Origin: Rugamonas violacea
Lineage (GTDB): Bacteria; Pseudomonadota; Gammaproteobacteria; Burkholderiales; Burkholderiaceae_D
Assembly (NCBI RefSeq): GCF_016461825.1
Contig: NZ_JAEMNU010000031.1
Span: 164,958-228,957, forward strand
Reading direction: 5' to 3'
Length of the DNA stretch: 64,000 nt
The notes beneath the pieces were generated by a model. It saw only the letters and a list, made by a program, of their open reading frames with translations. It was not told the origin of the DNA and did not search any database. Numbering within the stretch: position 1 is the first letter of the stretch; every line of letters starts with the position of its first letter. The translations under genes and the position numbers were made by a program. Positions 1-9,100 of this stretch are shown piece by piece.

Positions 1-2027
1 TCCAGCGGATCGACCTCCAGCGACCATTTGACCCGGCTCTTCATCGCCCGCAAGGTCTCCGTCCACACCTTCAGGAAGGCCTGCAAGGCCGGCCGCGAGG
101 GCGACTCCACCAACAACTGGGCGCGGTCCACATTGTGCACCCGCGTCATGCTCATCGGAATCGGATCGTTGATCGTGATGCCGGGATGTTCCACGCAATC
201 GCGCGCCAGACTCAAGAATTCGATGGCCGTGGCCAGCTCGGCCGCCTCGGCGCGCAACAGCGCCTGGAACAGATAGGGCGGCAGGTCGGCCTGCTCGCGC
301 TCCTCCAGCAAGGCCGTGGCGAAATGGTCGTAGTCGTGGTTGACCACCGCGCCGTACAGCGGATGCTGGGTGTAGCGGGTCTGGATCAACACCTCGCTGG
401 CGCTGCCGCCCTCGGTCTGGGCGGCGCGGCCGGCGCGGCCGGCCACCTGCATCAGCTGGGCGAACAGGCGCTCGCTGGCGCGGTAATCCTGCGAGAACAG
501 CGCGGTGTCCGGATTCATGATGCCGACCAGGGTCAGCTTCTTGAAATCGTGCCCCTTGGCGACCATCTGCGTGCCGATCAAAATGTCCACCTCGCCACGG
601 TGGACGCTGTCGAAGGCCTCCTGCGCGCTGCCCTTCTTGCGCGTCGAGTCGGCGTCGATGCGCAAGATGCGCGCCTCGGGGAACAGCGCCTGCAGACCCT
701 CCTCGACGCGCTGGGTGCCGCGTCCCAGCGGTTGCAGGTCGACGTTGCCGCAGGTCGGGCAGTGGCGCGGGATGCGCATCTCCAGGCTGCAATGGTGGCA
801 GCGCAGCCGGTGTTCCGGCTTGTGCAGCACCATGAACGAGGTGCAACGGGTGCATTCGCTGATCCAGCCGCAGGATTCGCAGCAGATCACCGGCGAATAG
901 CCGCGCCGGTTGAGGAACAGCAGCGACTGCTCGCCGCGCTCGAGGCGCTGGCGCAGGGCCGCCACCAGCTGCGCCGTCAGGCCGTCCTTGGGCTTGTCGC
1001 GCTCCATGTCGAGCAGCCTGACCTGCGGCAGCACGGCGTTCTTGACGGCGCGTTCGCGCAGCTCCAGGCGGCGGTAGCGCCCGGTCCGGGCGTGGTGCCA
1101 GCTCTCCAGCGAGGGCGTGGCCGAGCCCAGCACGATGGGGATGCCGAGCTGCCAGGCGCGCCACACGGCCAAGTCGCGCGCCGAGTAGCGCAGCCCCTCC
1201 TGCTGTTTGTACGAGGGGTCGTGCTCCTCGTCGATGACGATCATCTTCAAGTGCGGCAACGACGCCAGGATGGCCAGCCGGGTGCCCAGCACGATGCGCG
1301 CCTGGCCCTGGTGGGCGGCCAGCCAGTGCAGCATGCGCTCGCCCTCGGACAGGCTGCTGTGCAGGGTGGCCAGCATGACGCCGGGGAAGCGGGCGCGGAT
1401 GTTGCCCTCCAGCTGGGGCGTCAGGTTGATCTCCGGCACCAGAATCAGGATCTGGCCCTGCGGCTCGCGCGCCAGCACCTGGGCGCAGGCCTGCAGGTAG
1501 ACCTCGGTCTTGCCGCTGCCGGTGACGCCGTACAGCAGGGTCGGCTTGAAGCCCCGGGCGGCGCCGATGGCGTCGGCCGCCTCCTGCTGCGCCGGATTGA
1601 GCCGCGGCATGTCGAGCGGCGTGCCGTCGTGCACGGCGTCGTGCTTGGCCAGCTTCTTCAGCGCGCGGTCGAGCGCCACGGTGGTCAGCACGCGCAGGTT
1701 CTTCGGCAGACCGGGCAGGGCCACCTCGCCCAGCGGCCGCTGGTAGTAGTCGGCGGCGAAGCCGGCCAGCGCCAGCCATTGCGGCGACAGCGGCGACAGC
1801 TGGGAGCGCACCGCCAGGGCGTCCTTGAGCTTGGCCTCGGGCACGTCCGTGTGGTGGGCGATGCCGACGATCAGGCCGATCACCTCGCGCCGGCCGAAGG
1901 GCAGCAGGGCCAGCTGGCCGATTTGCGGTTCGTTTGCGGCATCGCAAACCCAGCGGTAGTCGAATACGGCGTTGAGTGGCGTATCGAGCACGATTTGAAG
2001 AATGCAATGATGGGGAATGCCGTGCAT
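1..2027 (-). CDS. priA: Primosomal protein N' (PriA helicase), 3' end just outside window
   Basis: Superfamily 2 helicase that restarts stalled replication forks by reloading the replisome. Reading leftward from ATG at 2027 the frame stays open to the window edge (675 codons). The last residues visible, KWSLEVDPL, match the family C-terminus, so only a few codons are missing. The Walker A Lys (GSGKT) is residue 173 and a DEEH box follows. Zinc-binding pairs CESC, CTRC, CHHC and CPTC are present. The N-terminal DNA-binding domain starts around LDTPLNAVFDYRW (residue 14 on). Only about 64 residues separate the end of that domain (PKNLRV, about 109) from the Walker Lys, roughly 58 fewer than in E. 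coli PriA as I recall it, so most of the winged-helix domain seems absent. CAGGA six bases upstream supports the start. Confidence 0.95.
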   Translation of the reverse strand, partial: MHGIPHHCILQIVLDTPLNAVFDYRWVCDAANEPQIGQLALLPFGRREVIGLIVGIAHHTDVPEAKLKDALAVRSQLSPLSPQWLALAGFAADYYQRPLGEVALPGLPKNLRVLTTVALDRALKKLAKHDAVHDGTPLDMPRLNPAQQEAADAIGAARGFKPTLLYGVTGSGKTEVYLQACAQVLAREPQGQILILVPEINLTPQLEGNIRARFPGVMLATLHSSLSEGERMLHWLAAHQGQARIVLGTRLAILASLPHLKMIVIDEEHDPSYKQQEGLRYSARDLAVWRAWQLGIPIVLGSATPSLESWHHARTGRYRRLELRERAVKNAVLPQVRLLDMERDKPKDGLTAQLVAALRQRLERGEQSLLFLNRRGYSPVICCESCGWISECTRCTSFMVLHKPEHRLRCHHCSLEMRIPRHCPTCGNVDLQPLGRGTQRVEEGLQALFPEARILRIDADSTRKKGSAQEAFDSVHRGEVDILIGTQMVAKGHDFKKLTLVGIMNPDTALFSQDYRASERLFAQLMQVAGRAGRAAQTEGGSASEVLIQTRYTQHPLYGAVVNHDYDHFATALLEEREQADLPPYLFQALLRAEAAELATAIEFLSLARDCVEHPGITINDPIPMSMTRVHNVDRAQLLVESPSRPALQAFLKVWTETLRAMKSRVKWSLEVDPL

Positions 2028-2111
2028 CAGTCCTGCCGATCTACAAAAGTCACGCTGGGAATCATGGGAAATCGCTGCAAAAACCGCGCCCGCCGGGGCG
2101 CCGGATGGTAG

Positions 2112-2142
2112 CCACAGTTTGTGTGGATAACTTTGTGGACAA
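2112..2142 (+). repeat. 31-bp direct repeat, copy 1
   Basis: Identical over 31 bases to 2558-2588, 446 bases away in the same orientation. It begins CCACAGTTTGTG and ends TTTGTGGACAA, and contains one perfect DnaA box (2122-2130). Confidence 0.9.
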
Positions 2143-2557
2143 AGGAAAATTAATACGGAGAAACGGCACCCGATGTACTCGCCCGTATCGTAAACCGGGC
2201 AAAAAACACAAAATATTTACCTTTATAATCAAGCACTTGGAAAATGCCTCCTAGGGGACGGCAAATTCGCGTTTTTTCCCCGCCGCTGTGCATAAGTGAA
2301 GTATTTAGACCGCAATTTTGCGTGAAATCAAGTACTTTTTGCGGCCCGGCGAAAAAGTTATCCACTGATGCGGCGCGGCATGGACGGCGCCGGGCGATCC
2401 GCATTCTACACATGCCTTGGCAACAAGGTTTGTTTAAGGTCAAGCGAGTTATCCCGCCAAAAATCGTGCCCGCCGATAGTGCAGCGCAGCATGAAGCTCA
2501 GTCAAAACCTCGACATGATGGCTAAGTAGCGGTTTACTAAGTACTTTTCATTTTTAT

Positions 2558-2588
2558 CCACAGTTTGTGTGGATAACTTTGTGGACAA
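2558..2588 (+). repeat. 31-bp direct repeat, copy 2
   Basis: Second identical copy of the 31-base element at 2112-2142. Here the left edge overlaps an additional inward-facing DnaA box (2554-2562), so this copy holds a box pair. Confidence 0.9.
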
Positions 2589-2782
2589 TGAGTAAATAGC
2601 CCCCCGCCACCCTTGGGATAAGGTTTACAAACTACCAAAACTTGGTCGAAAGACCAAAAATTAAACTGTTTAAAATCAATTACTTGCGGGATTATCAAGG
2701 GCGGAGGAAATTGTGCTGCCTGTTATTTCCGCAGTAAAAAAAATTGTGCATAAGTCGCTCTGCGGGACTGGACAAGGGGATG

Positions 2783-2816
2783 AAAAAAGGGCACGTTTCA
2801 GGCGAAACGTGCCCTT
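2783..2816 (-). terminator. Rho-independent terminator after hemE
   Basis: Perfect 13-bp stem AAGGGCACGTTTC / GAAACGTGCCCTT (2787-2799 and 2804-2816) with a 4-base loop. Read on the minus strand it is followed by six T (2783-2788, partly within the stem). It lies 16 bases past the hemE stop codon. Confidence 0.9.
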
Positions 2817-2831
2817 GGTGCAGGTACCAGC

Positions 2832-3914
2832 TCAGGCGCCGCGCTGGGCCCGGCTCTGTGTGTGCACCGCTTCGACCATCGCCGCCACCGCCTCGGGTTG
2901 GGTGAACTGCGAGATGCCATGGCCCAGGTTGAAGACGTGGCCGCCGCCGTCGGCCGGCTTGCCGAAGGCGGCCAGCACCTTGGCCACCTCGGCGCCGATC
3001 TGTGCCGGGTTGGCGAACAGGATGGCCGGGTCCAGATTGCCCTGCAGGCCGACCTTGTGGCCGACCAGCGCGCGCGCCTTGGCCAGGTCGACGGTCCAGT
3101 CCAGGCCGACCGCGTCGGCGCCGATGTCGGCGATCTGCTCGATCCACTGGCCGCCGCCCTTGGTGAAGACGATGGCCGGGATCTTGACGCCGTCCTTGTC
3201 GCGCTTCAGTTGGGCCACCACCTGCCGCATGTAGCGCAGCGAAAACTCCTGGTAGGCGCCGTCGGCCAGCGCGCCGCCCCAGGAGTCGAAGATCATCACG
3301 GCCTGGGCGCCGGCGTCGATCTGGGCGTTCAGGTAGTCGGCCACCGAGCGGGCGTTGATGGCCAGGATGTGGTGCATCAGCTCGGGGCGGTTGTACAGCA
3401 TCTTTTTAATCGTGTGGAACTCGCGCGAGCCCTGCCCCTCGACCATGTAGCAGGCCAGCGTCCACGGGCTGCCGGAGAAACCGATCAGCGGCACCCGGCC
3501 GTTCAACTCGGTGCGGATCTGCGTCACCGCCTTGAACACGTAGTCCAGCGCGTCCGGCTCCGGCGCGCGCAGCGCCATGACCTCCTGCTCGGTGCGCAGC
3601 GGACGCTCGAACTTCGGTCCCTCGCCGTCGACGAAGTACAGGCCCAGGCCCATCGCGTCCGGCACCGTCAGGATGTCGGAGAACAGGATCGCCGCGTCCA
3701 GCGGGAAGCGGTCGATCGGCTGCAAGGTCACCTCGGTGGCGTAGTCGGGGTTCTTCGCCAGGCCGAGGAAGGAGCCGGCCCGCTCGCGGGTGGCGCGGTA
3801 TTCCGGCAGGTAGCGCCCGGCCTGACGCATCAGCCAGACAGGCGTGTATTCGGTGGGCTGGCGCAGCAGCGCGCGCAAGAAGGTGTCGTTCTGGAGCGGG
3901 GCGAATTGTGGCAT
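2832..3914 (-). CDS. hemE: Uroporphyrinogen decarboxylase
   Basis: Cytoplasmic enzyme of haem biosynthesis that decarboxylates the four acetate side chains of uroporphyrinogen III to give coproporphyrinogen III. The 360-residue product has the usual family length. It carries the N-terminal signature [15 protein letters not shown] (about residues 25-39), the catalytic-Asp region [13 protein letters not shown], and the [14 protein letters not shown] and FDSWGG motifs. I chose ATG 3914 ([17 protein letters not shown]), where family similarity begins. The frame stays open further upstream but that part reads as noise. No strong ribosome-binding site is visible. It is transcribed alone and ends at a strong terminator, and is divergent from the S9 peptidase gene. 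Confidence 0.96.
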
Positions 3915-4085
3915 GAAGGGCAGTCGGAGCTGGAGGAAAGACGCTATTATCGCACCCCCCGGCCGATTTTTACGCATACCCGACTGCCCCGCCGGGCCAA
4001 GTTTCGCTGGAAGATTGTCCTTGCTTTCACTATGATGCCTAGCAGCCCGCGCCGCGACCCGGCCATCCCACCTTCTGGAGCGACC

Positions 4086-6122
4086 ATGACCATCGATACC
4101 GCCACCGACCACGCCACCTCCCCCCACGCCAGCGCGCCCTTCGGCACTTGGCCGTCGAGCATCGGCGCGGCGCGCGTGGCGGCCGGCGCCACGCCGCTGA
4201 GCCAACTGGCGCTGGGCGGCGCCGACGGCGGCGACATCTTCTGGCTGGCCGGCCGCGCCGCCGAGGCGGGCCGCAACACCCTGCTGCGCCACCACGGCGC
4301 GCGGGCCGACGAGCTGACCCCGGCGCCCTTCAATGTGCGCAGCCGGGTACACGAATACGGCGGCGGCGCCTACGCGGTCGACGGCGATACCCTCTATTTC
4401 TCGCATTTCGCCGACAACCTGCTGTACCGCTGCGAGATTGGCGGCAACGGCGACGCCGCCGCCGCGCCGCGGGCGTTGACCCGGCCGGGCCGCCAGCGCC
4501 ACGCCGACTTCGTCGTCGACCGCCGCCGCCAACGCTTGATCAGCGTGCGCGAGCTGCACGGCGATGGCGCGGCGCCGCCCGACAACTGCCTGTGCGCCAT
4601 CGGCGCCGACGGCGTGGAAACCATCCTGGTGCAAGGCAGCGACTTCTACGCCGCGCCGCGCCTGTCGCCGGACGGCCGCGCGCTGGCCTGGCTGAGCTGG
4701 GACCATCCGCGCATGCCGTGGCAGGGCACCGAGCTGTGGCTGGCCGCCGTCAACGACGACGGCAGCCTGGCCACGCCCACGCTAATCGCCGGCGGCGCCG
4801 AGGAGGCCATCTGCCAGCCGGAATGGGCGCCCGACAACCGCCTGTACTTCGTCTCCGACCGCAGCGGCTGGTGGAACCTGTACCGCCTGGACGAACAGGA
4901 CGAACAGGACGAGCAGGACGAACCGGACGGCCGGCGCCGCGTCGAAGCGCTGTGCCCGATGCAGGCCGAATTCGCCACGCCGCACTGGACTTTCGGCGGC
5001 TCGATGTACGGCTTCCGCTCGGCCCGGGAGATCGTCTGCACCTACATCGAGCAGGGCGTCAGCAAGCTGGCCCGCCTGCCTCTGGGCGGCGGCAGGCTGG
5101 AGGCCATCGCCAATCCCTACCAGGAGATCCGCGAGCTGCGCGTCGGCGCCGGCTGCGTCGTCCTGCTGGGCGGCGGCCCGAGCATCGCGCTGGAACTGGC
5201 GCGCATCGAGCTCACCGGCGAAGAGGTCGAGGTGCTGGCGCAGTCGAGCGCCGAGCTGCCGGCCAGCGCCGACCTGTCGCTGCCGGCCAGCCTGCGCTAC
5301 CCCAGCGCCAACGGCCGCGAGTCGCACGCCTTCTTCTACCCGCCCTGCAACAGCAAGATCAACGGCCCGGCCGGCGCACTGCCGCCGGTGATCGTCATCA
5401 GCCACGGCGGGCCGACCGGCATGACCACCAACACCTTGAAGCTGGCCACCCAGTTCTGGACCAGCCGCGGCTTCGGCGTGCTCGACGTGAACTACGGCGG
5501 CAGCAGCGGCTTCGGCCGCGCCTACCGCGACGCCCTCAAGGGCCAGTGGGGCATCGTCGACGTCGAGGACTGCATCGCCGGCGCGCAGGCGCTGGTGGCG
5601 CGCGGCCTGGCCGACCCCGAGCGGCTGATCATCCGTGGCGGCAGCGCCGGCGGCCTGACCACCTTGTGCGCACTGACCTTCCACGACGTCTTCAAGCTCG
5701 GCGCCAGCTACTACGGCGTGTCCGACCTGAAGGGCCTGGACCTGGACTCGCACAAGTTCGAATCGCACTACAACGCCTACCTGATCGCGCCGCAGCCGGC
5801 CGCCGAGGCGCTGTACCGGGAGCGCTCGCCGATCAACCACACCGACCGCCTGGCGCGGCCGATGATCTTCTTCCAGGGCCTGGACGACAAGGTGGTGCCG
5901 CCGCAGCAGTCCGAGACCATGGTGGCGGCGCTGAAGGCGCGCGGCGTGCCGGTCGCCTACCTGCCGCTGGAAGGCGAGGGCCACGGCTTCCGCAAGGCCG
6001 AAAACATCATCCGCACACTGGAGGCCGAGCTGTACTTCTACCAGCGCATGTTCGGCCTGCACACGCCGGGCGCCGCCGCCCCGGTGGAGATTTACAACCT
6101 GCCGGACGCCCCGGCCGCATGA
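4086..6122 (+). CDS. S9 family peptidase (prolyl oligopeptidase / acylaminoacyl-peptidase type)
   Basis: Serine peptidase of clan SC, likely cleaving short peptides from the N-terminus. The 678-residue protein has an N-terminal beta-propeller region (about 1-400, with TolB/PD40-like stretches such as [17 protein letters not shown]) and a C-terminal alpha/beta hydrolase domain. The catalytic triad is visible: Ser520 in RGGSAGG, Asp601 in GLDDKVVP and His633 in EGHGF. No signal peptide is seen, so it is probably cytoplasmic. GGAG six to nine bases before ATG 4086 supports the start. A 9-base unit repeated four times (4890-4925) encodes [12 protein letters not shown] in a propeller loop. The SNF2 gene starts 13 bases downstream, suggesting co-transcription. 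The exact substrate is unknown. Confidence 0.88.
4890..4925 (+). repeat. 9-bp tandem repeat inside the S9 peptidase gene
   Basis: Four consecutive copies of GACGAACAG (third and fourth with one or two changes) code for the acidic run [12 protein letters not shown]. The unit is a multiple of three, so copy-number change would only lengthen or shorten a surface loop. Confidence 0.85.
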
Positions 6123-6135
6123 CCCTGGAACCCGC

Positions 6136-9100
6136 ATGACCGACCCGCAACTGCTCGCCGAATTCGACACCCTCGCGTTCAATGAAAAAATGATCCTGGC
6201 CCTGCTCGCCCTGCTCGGCGAGCCGACCGGCCGCACCAGCATCCTCGATCACATGCGCGCGGCCGGCTTCAAGGACCCGCAGGAACGCACCTACAGCGCC
6301 ACCACGCTCGACGAGCCGATCCACCACCTGGAACGGCTGGCCTTCATCAGCGTCATCACCGGGCGCGGCTACGTCTGCAACCCCAAGCTGCGCTGGCCGG
6401 CGCTGCGCGCCGCCATCGGCGCCCACACGCTGGACCAGCTGTGCCAGGCGCACGACGTGGTGGTGCCATTGCGGCAGAGCTGGAGCACCTTGGAGCCGCG
6501 CAGCTACCGCGCCGGCGTGGCGCGCCTGCGCATGGCGCTGCTGCGCGGCCAGGCGCCGCAGCAGGTGGTGCCGCTGCTGAGCTTTTGCATGGCCAGCTAC
6601 GAGGCGGCCCAGCTGCACCCGATCATCGAGATCCTCGGCCGGCCGTTCGAGGCCGGCATGCTGGCGCGGGTCCACCCGCTGATGCAGGACGACGTGCTGA
6701 CGCTCCTGTTGAACAACGCCCAGCGCGAACCGGCCGGCGCGGCCCAGTTGCGCGCCCACGCCGAGCAGCACGTGCAGCTGCGCCAAACCGCCGGCGACGA
6801 GGTAGCGCCGGCGCTGCGCCTCGGCCTGGCCGAAGACGCCATCCTGTGCGGCCGGCTGGACGAGGCGGCGCGCTACCTGGCGCGCTGCGACGGCGCGCAG
6901 GCGCAATTCTTCGCCAGCGTGGTGCACCTGCTGCGCGGCGAGCACGCCACCGCGCTGAACGGCTTCGAGGCGGCGCTGAAGGCGCTGCGGCGCGAGTCGG
7001 GCAAGCGCAAGCAGCTGTTCCACGGCATCGGCGGACACCTGTACGCGCTGGCCCTGATGCGCAGCGGCGACGCCAAGCTGGCCAAGGCCGCCGAGGCCTA
7101 TCTGGACGCCGCCGTGCGCGCCACGCAAAACCACGACAGCGCCGTCTACCAGCAGCTCGACCTGCTGCGCCAGGTGCGCGCCGGCACGCTGCAGCCGGAG
7201 GCCATCCCGACCCGCGCCTGGGAGACCACGCTGCAGGCGCAGATGTTCCAAAGCCTGCTGTACTACTGGCTGTCGCTGCCGCAGCTGGCGCAGCGCCGCC
7301 TCGAACTCGAAGAGCTGGCGCAACAGGCCGAGGCGGCCGGCTACCTGCTGCTGGCCGGCCAGGCCCTGGCCCTGCTCGGCCACTTGGGCGAGCCGGCGCA
7401 GGCCAAGCGCGCCGCCGCGCTGCGCGAGCGGCTCGGCTTCGCCGACCTGACGCAGTGGTTCGAGCGGCAGGAGTCCTGGCAGCGCCAGCTGACCGCGCTG
7501 ATCAATCTGCACCAGCCGGCCGCGCCGGAACAAACCGGCGCCGCGCGGCTGGCCTGGATGCTGGTCTACGACGCCCGCCACGGCCTGACCGAGGTCGAGC
7601 CGCGCGAGCAGAAGCGCGACGCGCGCGGCGCCTGGAGCAAGGGCCGCGCGGTCGGCCTCAAGCGGCTGCGCTTCGAGTCCGAGCAGATCGACTACCTGAC
7701 GCCGCAGGACTTGCGCGCCGCCGAAGCAATCAGCGTGGCGCACCGCAATTACCACTCCTCCGGCCTGGCCTACGAGGTCGACCCGCAGCGCGCCGCCGTC
7801 GCGCTGATCGGCCACCCGCTGGTGTTCTGGCAGGAGACGCCGGAAACCCGCGTCGAACTGCTGGCCGGCGCACCGGAGCTGCTGATCCGCAAGCGCGGCG
7901 GCAATCTGCATCTGAGCCTGCAACCGGCCATCCCCGACAACAACTCGACCGTCGTCATCAGCCGCGAGACGCCGACCCGGCTGCGCGTGATCGCCATCGC
8001 CGACGAGCACCGCCGCATCGCCGCCATCGTCGGCGACGGCCTGATCGTGCCCGAACACGCCGAGCAGCAGGTGCTGCAGGCGATCGGGGCTATCTCCTCG
8101 CTGGTGACGGTGCAATCCGACATCGGCGGCGCCCACAGCGACGTGCAGCAGGTCGACGCCGACGCCCGCCTGCACGTCCATCTGCTGCCCTACCAGCACG
8201 GCCTGAAGATGCAGTTGCTGGTGCGCCCGCTCGACGGCGGCGCCTACTACGCGCCGGGCGACGGCGCCGAGACCCTGATCGCCGACGCCGGCGGCAAGCC
8301 GGCGCAGACCCGGCGCGACCTGAACGCCGAGCGCGACGCCGAGCGCCAGTTGGTCGGCAAGTGCCCGATCCTGGAAGAGGCCGAGCAGGACCACGGCGAG
8401 TGGCTGCTGGGTCAACCGGCGCTGTGCCTGCAACTGCTGGCCGAGCTGCAGGCGCTGAACCCGGACAGCATCGTGCTGGCCTGGCCCGAGGGCGAGAGCT
8501 TCCGCATCACCAAGAAGGTCGACAGCAAGCAGCTGCGCCTGACCATCAAGAGCCACAAGGACTGGTTCGCCGCCAGCGGCGAGCTGCAGGTCGACGAGGA
8601 GCAGGTGATGGACCTGCGCACCCTGCTCGAACTGGTCCGCAGCGGCAAGGGCCGCTTCATCGAACTGGGCGAGAACCGCTTCCTGGCGCTGGCCGAGGAG
8701 CTGCACCGCCGTTTGTCCGAGGTCTCGGCCTACGGCGAGTTGAGCGCCGACGGCGTGCGCCTGCACCCGCTGGCCGCCTTCGCGCTGGAGGAGCTGGCCG
8801 ACGAGGCCGGCGGCCTGAAAGCCGACCAGGCCTGGCGCGAGCATCTGGCGCGCATGCAGGCGCAGACCGAGTTCGTGCCGCAGCTGCCCAGCACCTTGCA
8901 GGCCGAGCTGCGCGACTACCAGCACGAGGGCTACGACTGGCTGGCCCGCCTGGCCCACTGGGGCGTCGGCGCCTGCTTGGCCGACGACATGGGCCTGGGC
9001 AAAACCTTGCAGGCGCTGGCGCTGATTTTGTCGCGCGCGCCGCAGGGGCCGACCCTGGTGGTGGCGCCGACCTCGGTGTGCATGAACTGGATCAGCGAGG

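Follow-up and report, generated by a model that had tools for sequence, protein, structure and literature searches.

A probable tandem pair of DARS-type elements between priA and hemE in Rugamonas violacea

Introduction

The spacer between priA and hemE in a 64-kb stretch of the Rugamonas violacea genome (64,000 nucleotides, here called the window) contains a dense cluster of DnaA boxes, and the question that it raises is whether this is a replication origin, a locus that titrates, inactivates, or reactivates DnaA, or a regulatory region of a neighboring gene. An earlier note on this DNA had left the choice between an origin and a titrating or reactivating locus. In the parts of two sources available to us, the cores of Escherichia coli DARS1 and DARS2 are described as three DnaA boxes with equal spacing and with box I opposite to boxes II and III; DARS2 is further described with the IHF consensus TAAnnnnTTGATW and with extra DnaA boxes and IHF sites (PMC8682772, PMC5742627). 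The accessible text of the latter source adds that Fis sites are needed for DARS2 activity, while DARS1 reportedly functions without factors of this kind, and that a minimal datA consists of DnaA boxes 2, 3, and 7 and one IHF site (PMC5742627).

Results

DnaA boxes in the priA-hemE spacer

Five exact TTATNCACA boxes lie in the spacer, at 2122(-), 2287(-), 2554(+), 2568(-), and 2745(-), and they are the only exact copies in the 64-kb window; over 100 dinucleotide shuffles the mean count was 0.29 and the maximum 2. The five exact boxes of the earlier note and its expectation of far less than one by chance are therefore borne out, but its count of one near match was too low: there are four one-mismatch boxes, TTGTCCACA at 2134(-) and 2580(-), TTATCCACT at 2358(+), and TTCTACACA at 2404(+). 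The repeated 31-mer described there is real and extends to a 34-bp direct repeat with one mismatch (33/34 identical; 2109-2142 and 2555-2588, 446 bp apart), and the inward-facing box pair is that at 2554(+)/2568(-), with 5 bp between. Its remaining descriptive points also stand: the flanking genes are hemE and priA, both above family cut-offs in family searches; the spacer has AT-rich segments and a GC content of 48%, versus 66% for the window; genes from 2.8 to 43 kb point mostly leftward (24 minus and 7 plus, by a simple gene caller); and dnaA, absent from the window, is on another contig, C169. A search of window positions 1-8000 against Rfam recovered no RNA element match up to an E value of 1.

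One module written twice

Read on the minus strand, the direction of priA and hemE, the spacer consists of one module written twice, with an outer TTATGCACA box, an IHF-type site, and then, 97 to 98 bp on, a three-box core arranged as III - 3 bp - II - 5 bp - I, in which box I is reversed. Scores below refer to R1, a sequence-only profile for which 35 modules were taken from the window and its relatives, with no E. coli sequence among them. The features are as follows.

2025-2027, minus strand: priA start codon
2028-2831, no strand: priA-hemE intergenic spacer, 804 bp, holding the whole element
2105-2297, minus strand: module B, nearest priA, same order as module A with box I degenerate; R1 match of 94.9 bits
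2108-2116, plus strand: module B core box I, GTAGCCACA, degenerate, two mismatches
2122-2130, minus strand: module B core box II, TTATCCACA
2134-2142, minus strand: module B core box III, TTGTCCACA
2227-2239, minus strand: module B IHF-type site, CAAGTGCTTGATT, starting 97 bp before the core
2287-2295, minus strand: module B outer DnaA box, TTATGCACA
2521-2755, minus strand: module A, complete with outer DnaA box, IHF-type site, and three-box core; R1 match of 117.7 bits
2554-2562, plus strand: module A core box I, TTATCCACA, reversed, head-to-head with box II
2568-2576, minus strand: module A core box II, TTATCCACA
2580-2588, minus strand: module A core box III, TTGTCCACA
2674-2686, minus strand: module A IHF-type site, CAAGTAATTGATT (YAAnnnnTTGATW), starting 98 bp before the core
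2745-2753, minus strand: module A outer DnaA box, TTATGCACA
2832-2834, minus strand: hemE stop codon

In the 64-kb window the core geometry was found at modules A and B only, and the two YAAnnnnTTGATW sites of the window are likewise those of the two modules. Both sites fit this relaxed consensus and miss the strict TAAnnnnTTGATW by its first base. The outer box has invariant TTAT and CACA across the 35 aligned modules. These 35 were chosen by hand, with a view to diversity, among 103 modules that a box pattern had caught, so R1 matches on them are not independent of the model; modules A (G000:C99:167478-167712) and B (G000:C99:167062-167254) are both among the training sequences.

Conservation across hemE-priA spacers

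A first comparison of 95 loci, in which 8 minus-oriented loci were skipped and 8 had no priA match, yielded 79 spacers; adding the window and 6 of the minus-oriented loci gave a set of 86. Conservation of the boxes in relatives, which the earlier note had named as a check, is evident here, with at least one exact box in all 86 spacers (one to eight each; four or more in 44 and only one in 10) and with spacings kept. The distance from outer box to core, which covers the pairs caught by the box pattern, is mostly 171 to 172 bp (A) and 158 to 161 bp (B) in Massilia, Duganella, Janthinobacterium, and allies, 171 to 173 bp in Undibacterium (a single module), 169 to 183 bp in Collimonas, Herbaspirillum, Noviherbaspirillum, and a Herminiimonas bin, and 176 to 188 bp in more distant genomes (again a single module).

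The III-3-II-5-I core, allowing up to three mismatches, is present in 72 of the 86 spacers, compared to none of 1,720 dinucleotide shuffles; 29 of these spacers have two cores and 43 have one, and all 101 cores are oriented towards priA. At this threshold the core is absent from the other 14 spacers, all of which are matched by R1, one (L032) weakly; four of them (L032, L034, L100, and L112) are R1 training modules. The relaxed IHF-type motif occurs in 72 of 86 spacers versus 64 of 1,720 base shuffles, and in none of 79 hemE coding stretches, a control that is soft because those stretches are GC-richer. The strict consensus occurs in 40 of 86 spacers versus 43 of 1,720 shuffles, and 36 of its 37 same-strand pairings with a core fall at 96 to 98 bp. 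A Fis-type site (GnnYAnnnnnTRnnC) within 60 bp after the core was found at 1 of the 101 cores, the same number as in shuffled sequence (1).

R1 matches 74 of 80 named loci. One of the six others (L085) is on a contig that stops just past hemE, and in the remaining five priA was not found beside hemE; one of these five (L113) is a short contig, and the other four (L108, L111, L114, and L115) are long loci with no R1 match. Weaker module matches also lie ahead of hemE, at 18 to 32 bits in Undibacterium (for instance L089:4579-4754, L090:4693-4870, and L100:4558-4733) and at 55.5 bits in an Oxalobacteraceae bin (L103:4679-4870). They end ∼110 to 270 bp before the hemE match, such that hemE is flanked on both sides.

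Distribution of the module

Within the window's order, which we regard as GTDB Burkholderiales (the classical beta-proteobacteria), the profile matches 392 of 399 genomes, including 343 of the 346 better ones, and in a phylum sample it matches 174 of 239; gene contexts were checked for part of these matches. Some members of the order score weakly, among them G056 (25.8 bits at best and 24.0 at its hemE-priA site).

Eight genomes of the genus, the R. violacea genome and seven complete ones, have three R1 sites each. S1 is hemE-priA, with site positions that agree with hemE. S2 consists of two modules ∼1.2 to 1.3 kb apart that flank a PAS-domain gene, near a chromate-transporter gene (G000:C22:6625-8193, L272, in R. 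violacea), with the same neighbors in the congeners read (G008, G020, G022, and G030). The gene between the modules has a PAS domain above the Pfam cut-off and a receiver domain below it. An assignment of one neighboring gene at this second locus as an HD-domain nucleotidase was dropped, as it matched no family in Pfam or NCBIfam. S3 takes the form, in R. violacea, of an array with xseA on one side and a gene of the exbD/tolR family on the other (G000:C97:58185-59802, L273), with six DARS-geometry cores at up to four mismatches together with IHF-type sites; in the seven congeners it was assigned by profile match and chromosome place rather than by genes.

The strict pattern CACA-N3-NTATCCACA-N5-TGTG gave 48 matches in 12 genomes, each of them at an R1 site or no more than 500 bp from one; its reversed form gave none. 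The eight genomes of the genus account for 39 of the matches, all at S1, S2, or S3 (S3 has four in R. violacea and between one and three in each of the seven congeners); 6 more are at S1 and S3 in G039, G273, and G256, and 3 are at R1 sites in G217.

Outside the family but within the order, 33 stretches with an R1 match were read. hemE and priA are present in 21 (18 sites, three of them read twice), xseA and an exbD-like gene in 6 (L242, L254, L261, L296, L298, and L300), and none of the tested marker genes in 6 (L229, L234, L237, L238, L259, and L260). Because the hemE-priA and xseA contexts recur outside the family, S1 and S3 appear to be old; among the loci read, S2 was confined to the window's family. 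R1 also scores in genomes of other classes, for instance at L281 (G648; 48 bits) and L282 (G591; 45.5 bits), in the phylum outside the class and with no tested marker gene near. Nine of the 14 stretches read outside the order (L281 to L294) lack every marker gene tested; of the other five, one is at bioD-uvrB, and a marker lies within ∼5 kb in the rest, uvrB in two and priA in two. G645, which belongs to the class but not to the order, has its match between bioD and uvrB.

Matches in E. coli

In 225 kb of E. coli sequence, the best R1 match (32.5 bits) falls between bioD and uvrB, which we take to be the DARS1 locus, and the next two (30.1 and 22.3 bits) fall on the mutH side. The region upstream of nrdA follows in fourth place (L279:44565-44722; 18.4 bits) and datA in fifth (16.6 bits); oriC is not among the R1 matches listed for this sequence. 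The core geometry, at up to five mismatches, occurs in the same 225 kb only at 813107 (bioD-uvrB) and at 2969135 (between rppH and mutH), and is absent at datA and oriC. A mutH primer was used for DARS2, and the nrdAB promoter contains DnaA boxes, according to the available text of one source (PMC8682772).

Position relative to the candidate origin

The R. violacea assembly has 173 contigs, and skew was read in two complete congeners, over 1.92 to 2.70 Mb of G008 (780 kb) and 0 to 0.62 Mb of G022 (620 kb). The raw cumulative minimum is at 2.4025 Mb in G008 (dnaA at 2.041 and the spacer at 2.246 Mb) and at 0.410 Mb in G022 (dnaA at 0.0004 and the spacer at 0.215 Mb), and thus lies ∼155 to 195 kb beyond the spacer and 360 to 410 kb from dnaA. 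Samples from the arms of G008 (10 stretches on each side) have negative raw skew in 9 of 10 on the left and positive in 8 of 10 on the right; five stretches of G027 were too few for placing a minimum. A classifier of codon position 3 gave minima at 2.400 Mb (G008) and 0.380 Mb (G022), with the spacer 67.9 and 78.3 log-odds units above the minimum in the two genomes, dnaA 115.7 and 121.3 units, and a locus near putA 9.6 and 10.9 units. This classifier learned from G008 before its use on G022 and separates single genes poorly (68% in cross-validation versus a base of 61%); as neighboring genes are, in addition, not independent, its unit differences serve as guides rather than probabilities. The GC-skew check proposed in the earlier note, as run on these stretches, therefore places the minimum away from the spacer, and the spacer was set aside as oriC because it is off both the raw and the codon-position-3 minima.

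The locus near putA is a conserved group of DnaA boxes comprising TTATCCACA(-), ATATCCACA, TTACGCACA or TTACTCACA, and TTATCCACA(+) over 159 bp, with AT-rich stretches. We found it in R. violacea (G000:C89:28044-32300, L215), G008 (2448.4-2451.3 kb, where putA was named by family), G022 (436-437 kb), G027 (4829.7-4830.3 kb), and G019 (3046.6-3047.2 kb), and in the last two it is duplicated, with two copies of the TTATCCACA pair 159 bp apart. In both G008 and G022 the skew minimum is no more than ∼60 kb away, which makes this locus a candidate for the true oriC, far from dnaA. Measured from this locus in four congeners, S1 lies at 6 to 7% of the arm, S3 at 44 to 56%, and S2 at 66 to 84%; the E. 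coli values are 20% for datA, 41% for DARS2, and 66% for DARS1. Around the skew minimum of G008, 15 of the genome's 36 TTATCCACA copies fall in ∼138 kb (G008:C1:2350602-2489054), several of them inside genes. The textbook origin place upstream of dnaA in R. violacea (G000:C169:19314) looks poor, because the 9 kb read around dnaA contain one exact DnaA box.

Discussion

Taken together, the arrangement of the boxes, the IHF-type site, and the way in which the profile picks out E. coli DARS1 and DARS2 favor the reactivating option of the earlier note over its origin option, and we consider the spacer to be probably a tandem pair of DARS-type, DnaA-reactivating elements. The sites, their spacing, their conservation, and their match to the E. 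coli DARS box geometry are present in the sequences themselves; by analogy with E. coli, DnaA and IHF would bind these sites, and head-to-head contact, ADP release, and an effect on initiation would follow. In such a mechanism ADP-DnaA would bind boxes I, II, and III, and the head-to-head pair on boxes I and II would bring two AAA+ domains together and loosen the ADP. IHF would bend the DNA ∼97 bp away and so may bring the outer TTATGCACA box to the core, and nucleotide-free DnaA could then leave, bind ATP, and initiate again at an oriC elsewhere. The R. violacea genome encodes Hda and IHF-alpha above cut-off and a Fis homolog that is 40% identical over residues 21 to 97.

Several points count against a DARS reading. 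E. coli DARS2 depends on Fis, but Fis-type sites just after the core are no more common than in shuffled sequence; the strict IHF consensus is missed by its first base, and box I of module B has two mismatches; and 14 of 86 spacers are without a core at three mismatches. Generic DnaA boxes in AT-rich surroundings also gain score under R1, as seen in the ranks of datA and of the region upstream of nrdA, the scores in other classes, and the weak scores within the order. At 6 to 7% of the arm from the candidate origin, the spacer is closer to the place of datA than to those of DARS2 or DARS1, and the four long loci without priA beside hemE have no match, as a priA-regulatory reading would also predict.

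The main alternative invokes the same proteins with the opposite sign, namely, a datA-like locus that binds DnaA with IHF and promotes ATP-DnaA hydrolysis or titration after initiation, thereby lowering initiation. The origin-proximal place, the many high-affinity boxes beside an IHF-type site, and the weak R1 match at E. coli datA would all fit such a role, but datA is without the III-3-II-5-I geometry and scores far below DARS1 and DARS2, and further copies of the core are found at mid-arm and on the terminus side. The boxes and IHF-type site of a minimal datA are present, in an arrangement closer to that of DARS. We regard a datA-like function as rather unlikely. Less likely again, if the boxes are to be explained by it in place of reactivation, is a DnaA-responsive regulatory region controlling transcription of priA, the replication restart helicase gene. 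Core B ends ∼80 bp before the start codon of priA, every core points towards priA, loci where priA was not found beside hemE lack the element, and in one genome outside the order a match lies ∼740 bp before the aligned priA start. The same module nevertheless occurs away from priA, beside xseA and beside a PAS-domain gene, and two full modules, spread over ∼650 bp and with the IHF spacing fixed, go beyond the requirements of a promoter; priA control is compatible with a DARS function, and the two could coexist.

Very improbable, in our estimate, is that the spacer is the chromosomal oriC, or an origin that is secondary or no longer in use. Some alpha-proteobacteria have hemE beside oriC, the spacer is AT-rich, dnaA has few boxes in its own upstream region, and the box density of the spacer is the highest in the 780 kb around the G008 origin, if narrowly (score of 15 versus 14). 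Against this stand the distances of the spacer from the raw and codon-corrected minima, the presence of several such loci per genome, and the lack of an R1 match at E. coli oriC; in G039, moreover, hemE-priA and its core are at 0.14 Mb, whereas the orientation of the rRNA operons suggests an origin at 1.68 to 2.25 Mb. In the part of G008 that was read, DnaA boxes are densest away from the skew minimum, a warning that origin finders based on box density may pick a DARS.

If the DARS reading of the spacer is correct, nearly every member of the window's order would have DNA-encoded recharging of DnaA, at hemE-priA and xseA. A broader proposal, which we put forward tentatively as the less likely outcome, is that beta-proteobacteria run the DnaA cycle with a multilocus DARS system built of one homologous module. 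In this genus it might comprise an origin-proximal tandem pair that roughly holds the position of E. coli datA, a mid-arm site (an array in R. violacea), and a terminus-side pair, with DnaA possibly reactivated stepwise as forks pass the three sites. Among titles and abstract openings, in a search whose coverage excluded most subscription papers, we found no account of a DnaA-box cluster at hemE-priA or xseA, and the DARS papers that one search brought up have E. coli as their subject, judged on the same basis. In the available portions of the sources consulted, DARS are described for E. coli and its gamma-proteobacterial relatives, with one mention of E. coli-proximal beta species (PMC8682772, PMC5742627, PMC4245941): one source describes the DARS2 core as conserved among gamma-proteobacteria related to E. 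coli (PMC4245941), and a later review places DARS in E. coli-proximal beta- or gamma-species (PMC5742627).

Comparison with known systems

The spacer shares DnaA boxes, AT-rich stretches, and, as far as the accessible sources describe it, an IHF site with E. coli oriC, which differs in having no R1 match and no such core; hemE-priA, for its part, is not at the skew minimum of the relatives. With datA it has in common DnaA boxes, an IHF-type site (one in datA), and a place near the origin, but datA lacks the III-3-II-5-I core and yields only weak, partial R1 matches. DARS2 has the same core geometry as both window modules (box I being degenerate in module B), and a near-consensus IHF sequence in it aligns at the corresponding place of R1; in the window the relaxed form of this IHF site lies 97 and 98 bp from the two cores. 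It differs in its genes, in its position at 41% of the arm from oriC versus 6 to 7% for hemE-priA, and in its essential Fis sites, none of which was seen after the window-type cores above the shuffled count. DARS1 differs in having a single core, other genes, and another chromosomal position, and no strict IHF consensus was found between bioD and uvrB, but its boxes have the same orientation and the same offsets of 14 and 12 bp as those of the window, which lie at 2554(+)/2568(-)/2580(-) in module A and at 3108(+)/3122(-)/3134(-) of L275 in DARS1.
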